The notes below the pieces were generated by a model, which saw only the letters and a list, made by a program, of their open reading frames with translations, had not been told where the DNA came from and made no database searches. A stretch of 64,000 nt of DNA from Lentzea tibetensis (GTDB taxonomy: Bacteria > Actinomycetota > Actinomycetes > Mycobacteriales > Pseudonocardiaceae), in contig NZ_VOBR01000006.1 of NCBI RefSeq assembly GCF_007845675.1, forward strand, positions 62,001 through 126,000, written 5' to 3'. The translations under genes and the position numbers were made by a program. Below, one piece after another: positions 8,103 to 26,448 of the stretch (position 1 is the stretch's first letter; every line of letters starts with the position of its first letter).

Positions 8103-12247
<4,145 letters not shown>

Positions 12248-12251
<4 letters not shown>

Positions 12252-12589
12252 CTCGACGCGGCTGCCTCGCAGGCCTCGCCGACCGTGCCGCGGACGTCCA
12301 GCACGTCCGCCACGTCGGCGAGCGTGAAAAGCCGCATGACAGGCGCCTGAGGTGCGGCGATGCGCAGCTCGCCACCCTTCTCGCCCAGCCTGCGGTGCCA
12401 GTCCAGCAGCAGCGCCAGCCCGGTCGAGTCCATGAACGTGACCTCGGCGAGGTCGAGCACGGCACGGTCGCCGGTGACGTCCTCGTCCAGCCGTGTGGCC
12501 AGCAGCGGAACGGTGTCGATGTCGAGCTCACCCGCGACAGCGATCACCCGCCAGCCGCTGAGGACCTCACTGCCGACCCGGAGCTCCAT
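12248..12589 (-). CDS. STAS-domain anti-sigma factor antagonist
   Basis: 113 residues forming a single STAS domain: GELDIDTVPLL, the phosphorylation loop VTFMDSTGLALLLD with the target Ser in DSTG, then a terminal helix. In the partner-switch model, the unphosphorylated form binds an RsbW-like kinase and frees a sigma factor. The ATG at 12587-12589 follows GGAAGGAA; a much longer in-frame extension upstream is spurious because it crosses the promoter and the RsbW gene. It is divergent from that RsbW-like gene and convergent with the hybrid kinase. No sigma factor gene lies in this group. Confidence 0.88.
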
Positions 12590-13511: not shown

Positions 13512-13822
13512 GCGAAACCGGCGCGAGCCAAGAGAGCACCGACCAACCGCGCATATCAAGCGAGCACAGCGAACCAGCGGGCACCCAAGGAACGCGGCCG
13601 AACCAGCAGGCACAAGAGAGCGCGGCCAAACCCGCAGGTACCAAGGGGGCATCGACCAACCTGCAAGTACCAAGAGAGCTCAGCGAGAACCGGCGCGAGC
13701 CAAGAGAGCACCGACCCAACCGGCAGGCACCAAGGAGCCCCAGCGAACCGGCAGATACCAAGCGAGCACCGCCAAAACCAGCAGATACCAAGGGAGCCCG
13801 CCAAAACCGGCAGATACCAAAA
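13512..13822. repeat. Degenerate ~29-bp tandem repeat array, 11 units
   Basis: Units approximate to aaaccggcagataccaagag followed by agcaccg; the CCGGC-like core recurs at 13518, 13547, 13574, 13603, 13632, 13660, 13690, 13720, 13748, 13778 and 13807, giving spacings of 27-30. Units vary from one to the next and there are no unique spacers, so this is not CRISPR. The last units, next to the linker, are the most regular and most like those of copy 2. Confidence 0.85.
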
Positions 13823-13928
13823 GAAAGGAGCGCCCGCCGCACTGCCAACCCCCGCAGTGCCAACCGGGCGCGGCCCCCGAGCACAAACCGGCAGCCGAAC
13901 GACCAGAACAAACTTTCCCGGAGGGCAG

Positions 13929-14061
13929 GGGGTGGGGAGGGTCTCGCTGATCAGGCGAAGCCTTGCCACATCGAAAATGCCCTGTCAAGGCAGCTTTTCC
14001 GCCTTGACAGGGCATTTTCGATGTGGCGACCTCTGGTGATCAGCGAGACCCTCCCCACCCC
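13929..14061. repeat. 133-bp palindromic element, copy 1
   Basis: Two nested perfect inverted repeats: 25 bp (13929-13953 with 14037-14061) and 26 bp (13966-13991 with 14001-14026). They are separated by an asymmetric bulge (12 and 10 bases) and capped by a 9-base loop agcttttcc. The palindrome ends 28 bp past the stop of the minus-strand enoyl-CoA hydratase-like gene. It may act as a terminator for that gene, but it is far longer than needed. Copy 2 is at 25209-25341. Confidence 0.92.
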
Positions 14062-14089
14062 ACCACCAGAAAGAAACCCAACCCACACC

Positions 14090-14860
14090 TCAAAAACGAG
14101 GCGCCCGCTTCTCCAAAAAGGCAGCAACACCTTCGACGTAGTCAGCGCTGTGCACAGCAGCGTCGTAGAGCGAGTGCACGGAGTCATCCTCGTGCTCCCC
14201 CTCGACGATCCGCCCGATGATCGCCTTGGCTCCACGCACGGACACCTGCGACCGAGCGGCGACAACCGACGCCAACTCCTTGACCCGCCCATCCAGCGAA
14301 GCAGCGGGATGCACCTCGTTGACCAACCCGATCCGCAGAGCAACATCGGCCGAGATCAACTCGCCCGAGAACAAGATCTGCTTGGCCCACGCGGGCCCCA
14401 CGACGTCGACGAGCTGCTTGGTAGACGTAAAGTTGTAGATGATCCCCAGCTTGGCAGGCGTGATCCCGAACTGCGCATCGTCAGCGGCAACGCGCATGTC
14501 GCAGGCCAGCGCGATCTCGCACCCGCCACCGACGCAGAACCCGTGCACCGCGGCGATGGTCGGCTTGGACAGCGACACGATCGCGCGCTCTCCGGCGTGC
14601 ACCGCCTCGCTGTAGCGCGCGGCCCCGGAGGCACCGCTGCGCAACGTGGAGAACTCGGCGATGTCGGCACCGGCGGAGAAGTGATCGCCGCCGCGGATCA
14701 CGAGCACGCGCACGGCGTCGTCGGCCTCGACGGACGCCATGAGGCCCGGCAGCGCGGACCACATGTCGTAGCTCATGGCGTTGCGCTTCGCCGGACGGTT
14801 GATCGTCAACGTGGCCACCGCGCCCGCGGCCGTCAGATCGAGGAACTCGCTCACAGCCAT
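14090..14860 (-). CDS. Enoyl-CoA hydratase/isomerase (crotonase) family protein
   Basis: 256 residues. The crotonase fold is clear: LTINRPAKRNAMS, oxyanion-hole segment HFSAGADIAEF, and GFCVGGGCEIALACDMRV with the second oxyanion Gly. The second catalytic Glu of true hydratases is not present; the region reads FGITPAKLGIIYNFTS. TPxxLGxxYN and the C-terminal YVEGVAAFLEKRAPRF resemble methylmalonyl-CoA decarboxylase (YgfG) more than a beta-oxidation hydratase, although the His of that enzyme's SAGHD motif is Ala here. The precise reaction is therefore uncertain. The ATG at 14860 fits the family; a TTG 18 bases upstream is possible. Confidence 0.8.
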   Translation of the reverse strand: MAVSEFLDLTAAGAVATLTINRPAKRNAMSYDMWSALPGLMASVEADDAVRVLVIRGGDHFSAGADIAEFSTLRSGASGAARYSEAVHAGERAIVSLSKPTIAAVHGFCVGGGCEIALACDMRVAADDAQFGITPAKLGIIYNFTSTKQLVDVVGPAWAKQILFSGELISADVALRIGLVNEVHPAASLDGRVKELASVVAARSQVSVRGAKAIIGRIVEGEHEDDSVHSLYDAAVHSADYVEGVAAFLEKRAPRF

Positions 14861-14902
14861 CACGTTAACCAATCTCAATTGGGCCTAATGCCAGCGACCT
14901 AC

Positions 14903-24402: not shown

Positions 24403-24905
24403 GAGCCAGCCTCCTGAACGGACGCCTCCTGCGGCGGAAGAAGACGTGCTCGATATCACTCGGCCAGAGATGTACTCCACGGTTGTGAAACCTTCAAGAG
24501 GAGGTCCGATGTTTGAGCGTGTTTCATAAGTTACGTAATCGATAAAGGCTCCGAACGAGCCGATGTCTGTTGCAGAGCGTTGCCGATTTGGGCCCGAGTT
24601 CGACCCAACGGCATGGTCACGCTCCCACGACCGCCGTGGCGCCGAGCGGGTGCCGCGGGGTGCCCAGCAGGCAACACGCGCCCGCCGAGCACCCGCTCCG
24701 CGCCGCTCTTCTCGGCCTCGGGCCAGGCTCACGCAGGCGTCCCCGCACGCGAGAACCCCCCGAATCCATGCTCGCAGCCAGCACCGACAACCCCCGGCCC
24801 CGCCGACGCGCCAGCCCCGAAACCAGGGGGCGACAGCCTGCACTTTCTGCCGCGCGGCGCACACCCCGCGAGCGAAGCGAAGCCAGCACACCAGCGGCCC
24901 ACCAC

Positions 24906-25102
24906 GAAACCGGCAGGCGCCAAGGGAGCACAGCGAAAACCGGCGCGAACCAAGCGAGCGCCGCCCCAACCGGCAGGTGCCAAGAGAGCCCCAGCGAACC
25001 GGCAGATACCAAGCGAGCACCGCCGAAACCGGCAGATACCAAGAGAGCGCGGAGAAACCGGCAGATACCAAGAGAGCCCGACGAAACCGGCGCGAACCAA
25101 AA
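24906..25102. repeat. Degenerate ~29-bp tandem repeat array, 7 units
   Basis: The CCGGC core recurs at 24911, 24941, 24970, 24999, 25029, 25058 and 25087 (spacings 29-30). Units read like aaaccggcagataccaagag plus agcgcg. The array matches the one at 13512-13822 but has four fewer units, and in both the final unit runs into ccaaaagaaaggagcgcccg of the linker. Confidence 0.85.
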
Positions 25103-25208
25103 GAAAGGAGCGCCCGCCGCACTGCCAACCCCCGCAGTGCCAACCGGGCGCGGCCCCCGAGCACAAACCGGCGGCCGAACGATCAGGACAAACTTTCCCG
25201 GAGGGCAG

Positions 25209-25341
25209 GGGGTGGGGAGGGGCTCGCTGATCAGGCGCAGCCTTGCCACATCGAAAATGCCTTGTCAAGGCAGCTCTTCCGCCTTGACAAGGCGTTTTCG
25301 ATGTGGCGACCTCTGGTGATCAGCGAGCCCTTCTCCACCCC
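25209..25341. repeat. 133-bp palindromic element, copy 2
   Basis: Same architecture and length as 13929-14061: outer stem 25209-25233 with 25317-25341, inner stem 25246-25271 with 25281-25306. It differs from copy 1 at nine positions, two in loops or bulges and seven in stems. Four stem changes form two compensatory pairs (25222 with 25328; 25262 with 25290); the other three leave G-U pairs in plus-strand RNA. It starts 37 bp past the stop of the minus-strand patatin gene. Confidence 0.92.
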
Positions 25342-25378
25342 ACACCGCAAAGCCCCACACCGCAAAGAAGCCCAAACC

Positions 25379-26227
25379 CTAGTGGCTGGGATGCCCGTAC
25401 AACCCAGCCCCCGCAATCTCCAACGTAGTCAAAAACGCGTTAGAAGCCTCATACGAAGTCAAGATCAGCTCCGCGGTGTGCGTGAAGTCCAACGGAGTCA
25501 CGGGTTGCACAGGCGGCCCAGGCAGGTACAACACCGGCACATCACGCGATGCCAACTCAACTTCGAGCACGGCTTGGTTGCGCATCCCCAAAGTCGCCCA
25601 GAACAACAAGGTCTCGGCAAGCGTCTCCGGCACCGTAGGCAAGTGCCCGGGAAACGCACAGTCGAGCACCACCAACGACCGAGCCCCCATGGCCAACGCC
25701 TGCCGAATGGGCACGTTGGCGAGCACCCCACCGTCGTACAACACCTGATCACCGATCCGCACAGGCGGATAAACCCCGGGGATGGCCGAGGAAGCGAGGA
25801 TCGCAGGCACCAACTCCCCAGAAGTGATGTTGACCGCCTCACCGGTGACGCAGTCAACAGACACAGCCCCGAACGGCAGCCGCAACGAGGAGAAGTCCGT
25901 TGCCCCGTCAAGCCCTTCGGCCAAAACAGCAGCAAGCCCGGTGTTGGGGAACAGGTAAGTCTTGTTGGTGCGCAACGACCTCAGCTGAGCGATCGGCCCA
26001 CCGGGAAACACGCGCGGCCGCGTCATGCCCTCCCACATCACGGCGAGCCGGTCGGCAGCCTTGTCCGGGTCGAGCGACCCGTTGACCGAGCCGACCGACG
26101 TGCCGACCACGAGGTCAGGCCGGACGCCGTGCTCCGCGAGGGCGCGCAGCATCCCGACCTGACTGGAGCCGAGGCTGCCACCACCGCCGAGCACGAACCC
26201 GACGGGTCCGGGAAGAGTGATCGTCAC
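25379..26227 (-). CDS. Patatin-like phospholipase
   Basis: 282 residues from a probable GTG. The glycine-rich oxyanion segment FVLGGGGSLGSSQVGMLRAL is followed by the nucleophile motif GTSVGS (Ser near residue 42) and the catalytic dyad Asp in YDGGVLANVP. No signal or membrane segment is visible. It likely hydrolyses acyl chains from phospholipids or neutral lipids inside the cell. No clear ribosome site precedes the GTG, so the mRNA may be leaderless; a longer start upstream cannot be excluded. The repeat-cassette palindrome follows its stop. Confidence 0.82.
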   Translation of the reverse strand: MTITLPGPVGFVLGGGGSLGSSQVGMLRALAEHGVRPDLVVGTSVGSVNGSLDPDKAADRLAVMWEGMTRPRVFPGGPIAQLRSLRTNKTYLFPNTGLAAVLAEGLDGATDFSSLRLPFGAVSVDCVTGEAVNITSGELVPAILASSAIPGVYPPVRIGDQVLYDGGVLANVPIRQALAMGARSLVVLDCAFPGHLPTVPETLAETLLFWATLGMRNQAVLEVELASRDVPVLYLPGPPVQPVTPLDFTHTAELILTSYEASNAFLTTLEIAGAGLYGHPSH

Positions 26228-26448
26228 GGGTGCATCGTAAAACGACAGAGCTGTCTCACCACGTGAACACGCTTGGCCAGCCACTGACCGGGTGTCAGCA
26301 TCAAGGCGTGTCCCAGGCATCTGTGCTCAGCACGCGCCGCCACGTCGACCTCCGTCGGCAGGCGAGCGCGATCTGTGCGGTGCCCGTTCGTCTCGTCTGA
26401 AGAGTCTGAAAGCAGAACCAGACAACGCCCCGGCACTGGGGAGGGACC

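Follow-up and report, generated by a model that had tools for sequence, protein, structure and literature searches.

A 64,000-nucleotide stretch of contig NZ_VOBR01000006.1 of Lentzea tibetensis (hereafter the window) carries two copies of a 133 bp palindrome, which raises the question of what kind of element this is and what keeps its arms paired. Copy 1 lies at 13929..14061 and copy 2 at 25209..25341, both on the plus strand, exactly where a sequence-only reading of the window had placed them; each was delimited by RNA folding, sequence comparison and a covariance model. The copies differ at the nine positions counted in that reading (13942, 13958, 13982, 13996, 14010, 14014, 14048, 14051 and 14054, in copy 1 numbering). 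The differences at 13942/14048 and 13982/14010 are compensated pairs, as had been claimed, and those at 14014, 14051 and 14054 give G-T pairs on the plus strand, all three of them in copy 2. The layout first proposed was an outer stem, a bulge, an inner stem and a loop; the stems and loop were recovered, whereas the bulge proved to be a four-way junction bearing two mini-hairpins. Folding of copy 1 on the plus strand, with comparison to other copies for the mini-hairpins, placed mini-hairpin 1 (AGGC-GAA-GCCT) at 13953..13963, the inner stem at 13964..14028 with its 9-base loop at 13992-14000, and mini-hairpin 2 (ACC-TCT-GGT) at 14029..14037. The loop of mini-hairpin 1 is GCA in copy 2 (AGGC-GCA-GCCT), and mini-hairpin 2 has an alternative loop, GTGA, in other copies (ACC-GTGA-GGT). 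Predicted folding energies were -123.5 and -114.4 kcal/mol for copies 1 and 2 (z = -14.1 and -12.4), and none of 200 shuffled sequences folded as well. On both strands of the window the covariance model found these two copies only, the next match having E = 0.28.

The length of 133 bp holds for the palindrome, but the repeated unit is longer: positions 13775-14063 and 25055-25343 are 93% identical over 289 nt, the likeness ending to the right of the palindrome. Copy 1 is preceded on the plus strand by a degenerate tandem array of ~29 bp units (13528..13824, from a repeat scan) and by an arm of ~110 nt, delimited by sequence comparison and containing a GC-rich inverted repeat (13820..13928); copy 2 is likewise preceded by a ~29 bp array (24905..25091) and an arm (25100..25208), found on the same strand by the same methods. 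On the minus strand a T-rich stretch follows the inverted repeat of the copy 1 arm, giving a weak terminator-like signal at 13843-13829; the terminator scan gave four such sites in the window against 1.9 expected, which is near chance. To the right of each copy a minus-strand reading frame ends close by: one of 262 amino acids (14090..14878) has its stop 29 bases from copy 1, and one of 313 amino acids (25379..26320), missed by our home-made gene callers, has its stop ~38 bases from copy 2. Elsewhere in the window, positions 8530-10442 hold a 276 bp tandem repeat (6.9 copies, 82% matches) within long reading frames.

A wider search for further copies, which the sequence-only reading had proposed, revealed that the two window palindromes belong to a large family. 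Among the matches listed for a covariance model built from 36 palindromes, the family occupies at least 61 separate places in the L. tibetensis genome, of which 46 hold a full-length and 15 a partial palindrome. Most of the partial places lie where a contig stops, and two of these contig ends could carry the halves of a single palindrome. The initial family search used a 242-base query with the best 40 candidates scored, and queries with the arm and with half-palindromes added places, again with the best 40 candidates scored for each. At least two array-type motifs precede 45 of the 53 arms that have 120 nt of left flank. Palindrome copies account for assembly breaks, 17 of the copies read (the minus-strand copy of L140 counted among them) reaching a contig end. 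Away from contig ends, 14 of 45 arms lack an intact tip (one of them, L132, has a degenerate tip) and the breakpoints differ, as expected of unstable palindromes. The family thus consists of dispersed, non-coding, intergenic palindromes together with deletion derivatives. A literature search of incomplete coverage found no published description of this palindrome element. At the left of some islands we also noted a second, different palindrome family with outer arm GCGATTGGGCCTTGACTTGGGG, for example ~530-400 bases before the arm in L106 and also in L103, L118, L120, L123, L125 and L130; beyond it the array units run in the opposite direction, and similar sequence occurs in loci L036 and L039 of a second Lentzea genome, G024. 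A third long hairpin, formed by GAGCTCGTGAGTGATTAGGA and its complement, is present in two islands: in L113 it lies ~160-100 bases ahead of the arm, and in L130 it precedes position 12529.

Across Lentzea, a genus of soil bacteria, the model gave matches at E <= 0.001 in at least 19 of 25 genomes, among the matches listed. Fourteen genomes yielded loci (L155-L168) with palindromes of the same plan and other stem letters: an outer stem, a four-way junction bearing two mini-hairpins, an inner stem and a conserved loop. This is therefore a genus-wide family with one plan and differing stem sequences, and a palindrome of the same plan was found in Saccharothrix algeriensis. Locus L172 holds a fragment only. 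Loci in other genomes were the matches listed by a scan for the tip pattern, whose tip bases are fixed by the search pattern; it occurred in 21 of 391 genomes of the bacterial family, and a reversed control pattern in none. Pattern matches in Bacteroidetes (L185), Pyrinomonadaceae (L260) and Pelovirga (L288) were set aside as chance, having no long palindrome. Three loci of other Lentzea (L169, L170 and L171) contain large hairpins of a more distant type that share a GTCAAGACACGCTT tip. Palindrome-carrying alleles of other Lentzea (L358, L360, L361 and others) have a further conserved hairpin, CTGGGGCAGAGCCCCAG, in their islands, which use an array unit of their own of ~28 bp, GCGATGCCGCAGGCGAGCCGTCCT.

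Pairing was examined in 31 full copies of this genome, a set that excludes contig-end copies, L132, the minus-strand copy of L140 and one double find in L130. Watson-Crick pairs filled 1742 of 1767 cells, the remainder being 8 G-T, 6 A-C and 11 other combinations, and 22 of 57 pairs showed at least two Watson-Crick types. When four rows from G024 and L140 were added, 98.9% of cells paired and 33 of 54 pairs were altered on both sides; the covariation score of this extended set was 0.408 against 0.106 for shuffled and at most 0.118 for slid alignments, although a measure of further standard pair types was matched by 10 of 500 shuffles. Pairing is thus maintained across many copies, as the sequence-only reading had held, and the random loss of pairing in additional copies that would have refuted that reading was not seen. 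Among 57 distinct stems of other genomes (from the matches listed, with eight loci left out and then L257 and L288 dropped), all four Watson-Crick pairs occurred at 11 of the 13 middle positions (1-13 from the tip), and only 13 of 741 middle-stem cells were not Watson-Crick (4 G-T, 5 A-C and 4 other). The junction side of the inner stem was of another character: at positions 14, 16 and 17, read on the strand with the ACGCTTTTCG loop, 83 of 171 cells were G-T, 4 A-C and 2 other.

Such covariation could be read as the mark of a structured plus-strand RNA, or of single-stranded DNA, with a function of its own and with pairing kept by selection. The wobbles at the stem base are consistent with this, as are the conserved sequence and orientation of the loop and the retention of the mini-hairpins, and the one-strand bias is suggestive of a possible functional plus-strand form. 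Against it stand the middle stem, where G-T and A-C cells are about equally rare, and the wobble cells themselves, which come from related copies, so that few independent changes underlie the strand signal. The original argument that changes leave G-U pairs on the plus strand did not survive the enlarged sample, the 31 copies of this genome having 8 G-T against 6 A-C. Nor did any Rfam family match at its gathering score, which leaves no described RNA family as a candidate; when 651 bases were compared permissively with Rfam, ten matches were obtained, all below threshold, and eight of these were to microRNA-precursor models, which any long hairpin may match. We regard selection on an RNA or single-stranded DNA as a distinctly unlikely main cause of the pairing.

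Of the two ideas first put forward for the kept pairing, selection and a palindrome-dependent copying process, copying is the better, because the middle stem is near-strictly Watson-Crick with free letters, because the loop is inverted in one copy and because some copies have arms of mixed subtype. Pairing of the middle stem would be maintained chiefly at the level of DNA: after a mutation in one arm, template switching during replication would copy one arm onto the other, so that both sides would change together and the loop could flip. In two papers on quasipalindromes, arm homogenisation and inversion of the loop or spacer mark template switching (PMC8794818, PMC8604942). The Lentzea palindromes resemble those quasipalindromes in their identical arms, multi-pair changes and loop inversion, and differ from them in extending across many species as an entire repeat family with a conserved loop and with probable conversion among its members. 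Stem arms in our family stay identical while their letters change, several pairs together, the pattern by which template switching is recognised. A single loop inversion was found among the 31 full copies (L107), and mismatches at columns 20-21 are places where arms of different subtypes have been joined. Copying alone does not account for the wobbles at the stem base and the conserved ACGCTTTTCG loop, so some strand- or sequence-specific selection must act as well. One might go further and see two regimes in a single stem, with ~13 middle pairs free in their letters but perfectly paired and with base and loop constrained by strand. The palindrome would then represent a novel class of hairpin that is recognised as RNA or as single-stranded DNA, is copied from one chromosomal site to another and is rewritten where it stands, and this would explain conserved sites with species-specific sequences; we consider this extended reading unlikely. 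Should a protein recognise the loop or the wobble zone, the dispersed element would have such a partner.

Comparison of orthologous sites suggested that copies may also overwrite one another. In 12 of 15 site pairs, orthologous palindromes were less alike than were copies within either species. Median identity was 0.925 within and 0.776 between species for 63 loci among the matches listed. Three flank pairs (L209/L280, L213/L232 and, in Nocardia, L189/L252) stayed out of this comparison, and in some pairs the match is confined to a single flank. At two orthologous sites, S1 and S2, the palindrome is carried by 5 of 17 and 4 of 15 genomes, respectively, that have both neighbour genes. The S2 palindromes of G010 and G005 differ by one compensated inner-stem pair, those of G006 and G009 have unrelated middle blocks, and the tip and inner stem of G006 at S2 are those of G021 at S1; other genomes have a truncated palindrome (G003) or island remnants, as judged by eye, at S2. 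Palindromes at orthologous sites are thus species-specific. Locus L239 appears chimeric: its left arm is typical of the species, and its right arm agrees with the orthologues at two letters, the only ones by which the chimera is recognised. These site and chimera patterns fit template switching within the palindrome and conversion between copies. Copies within one genome would overwrite one another by ectopic conversion after past spread as parts of composite islands. We think both template switching and ectopic conversion fairly probable.

Within-genome likeness would have another cause if the element were still moved in trans by a transposase or hairpin nuclease, as recent transposition rather than conversion would then keep copies alike. 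Such movement agrees with the large number of near-identical copies in a single genome, with a palindrome that is there in some species and missing in others at the same orthologous site, and with tip hairpins beside integrase and DUF932 genes (Nocardia, Haloechinothrix) and several on a Prauserella plasmid. It is opposed by orthologous positions common to several species and by the failure to find either target duplications or fixed ends; a target duplication is unreadable at the compared sites, because alleles with and without the palindrome are dissimilar across the entire gap. For copy 1, the covariance model found the palindrome at none of 23 orthologous loci in other Lentzea, and its left neighbour gene was also found at none of the 23, so the empty-site junction cannot be read. 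The REP transposase family PF01797 has no match in this genome (G000) or in G024, the genomes with the most matches among those listed, which eliminates a REP moved by a RAYT transposase here; it occurs in 11 of 25 genomes of the genus, with no relation to copy number. A composite transposon was considered for the one inverted pair examined (L117) and rejected, since the reading frames between its members are ordinary-looking genes. Continuing movement in trans therefore seems rather unlikely to us. The earlier description as MITE-like holds for dispersal and for absence from orthologous sites; target-site duplication, defined ends and a transposase (PF01797 being the family searched) were not found.

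Several known systems provide points of comparison. REP and BIME elements are short intergenic palindromes near gene ends that code for no protein and are moved by RAYT transposases. The Lentzea palindromes are likewise numerous, intergenic, near gene ends and non-coding, but they are much longer and cross-shaped, are homogenised species-wide and rewritten at fixed sites, and have no Y1 transposase gene in this genome. MITEs are non-coding, inverted-repeat and multi-copy, and the Lentzea family shares these traits and is absent from orthologous sites, whereas neither target duplications nor fixed ends were found for it, nor a parent transposon among the genes inside the one inverted pair examined. 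Palindromes of Streptomyces telomeres contain GCGAAGC or GCGCAGC mini-hairpins, and mini-hairpin 1 includes one or other of these motifs, but the Lentzea palindromes are internal and dispersed; a literature search on telomere palindromes with such mini-hairpins found nothing. On balance we would class the element as a dispersed repeat, REP- or MITE-like.

Gene context points to a further property. Gene calls were based on home-made scores. Of the 40 copies in this genome with both flanks called, 27 lie between convergent genes, 10 between tandem genes (6 and 4 by direction) and 3 between divergent genes. In other genomes 29 of 56 loci, drawn from the matches listed with eight left out, are convergent against 125 of 669 background neighbouring pairs taken from the same loci, the rest being tandem (14 and 11 by direction) or divergent (2). 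The palindromes are thus enriched between convergent genes, and the lack of a favoured direction between tandem genes also counts against a plus-strand RNA. The right neighbour is on the minus strand for 43 copies, and in 18 of these the palindrome lies at most 40 bases from the stop of that gene. A native-terminator motif occurs at S1 in 6 of 12 palindrome-free alleles and in none of 5 with the palindrome; the other 6 palindrome-free alleles lack it as well. From the convergent setting, the proximity to stops and the absence of the S1 motif we infer a possible two-way transcript end: between convergent genes the island would replace a short native terminator, and, as a tentative proposal, the long hairpin might end or protect transcripts arriving from either side. 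In S1 alleles free of the palindrome (L362, L369, L370, L373 and others) a short hairpin, CACGCGGGG..CTTTCGT..CCCCGCGTGC, lies between the convergent genes and could constitute a separate repeat family.

Bidirectional intrinsic terminators are hairpins between convergent genes, and the palindrome resembles them in position and hairpin form, but it has no T-run directly after it and has a conserved loop, mini-hairpins and family-wide subtypes. The same observations on context, stops and the S1 motif would suit an ordinary long-hairpin terminator inherited by descent, free of mobility or conversion. Such a terminator would not be expected to occur in many copies that have composite arms and arrays, to be missing from all 23 loci orthologous to that of copy 1, or to show species-specific homogenisation with a conserved loop and junction, and we find this explanation improbable. 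The account that we favour, as somewhat the likelier description, is a REP/MITE-like dispersed repeat that is kept symmetric by template switching, homogenised ectopically, enriched between convergent genes and a candidate transcript end. If it is right, strong RNA-like covariation has arisen here mostly from DNA copying and not from selection on RNA. Searches that use covariation to discover non-coding RNA would then call for caution, and some 20 sister species would offer a record of template switching and of conversion from copy to copy.

A last explanation, that the palindrome is a signal for single-strand replication or transfer of plasmids that invaded chromosomes, draws on the copies that lie beside mobile-element genes or are carried by a plasmid. 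It is very improbable given that neighbour genes are inconsistent, that the tip pattern occurs in no viral contig and that the window element matches nothing in plasmid or phage collections; the last two results also led us to reject the idea that the window element came from a phage or a plasmid. In two Nocardia species (L189 and L252) the tip hairpin GTCAAGCCGCACGCTTTTCGCGGCTTGAC lies close to an integrase gene, and in Haloechinothrix (L271) it is flanked by DUF7715 and DUF932 genes. The Prauserella marina plasmid NZ_CP016354.1 (L355) carries three long hairpins with a GTCAAG tip, at 109964, 112050 and 114890, one of which is without its loop region.
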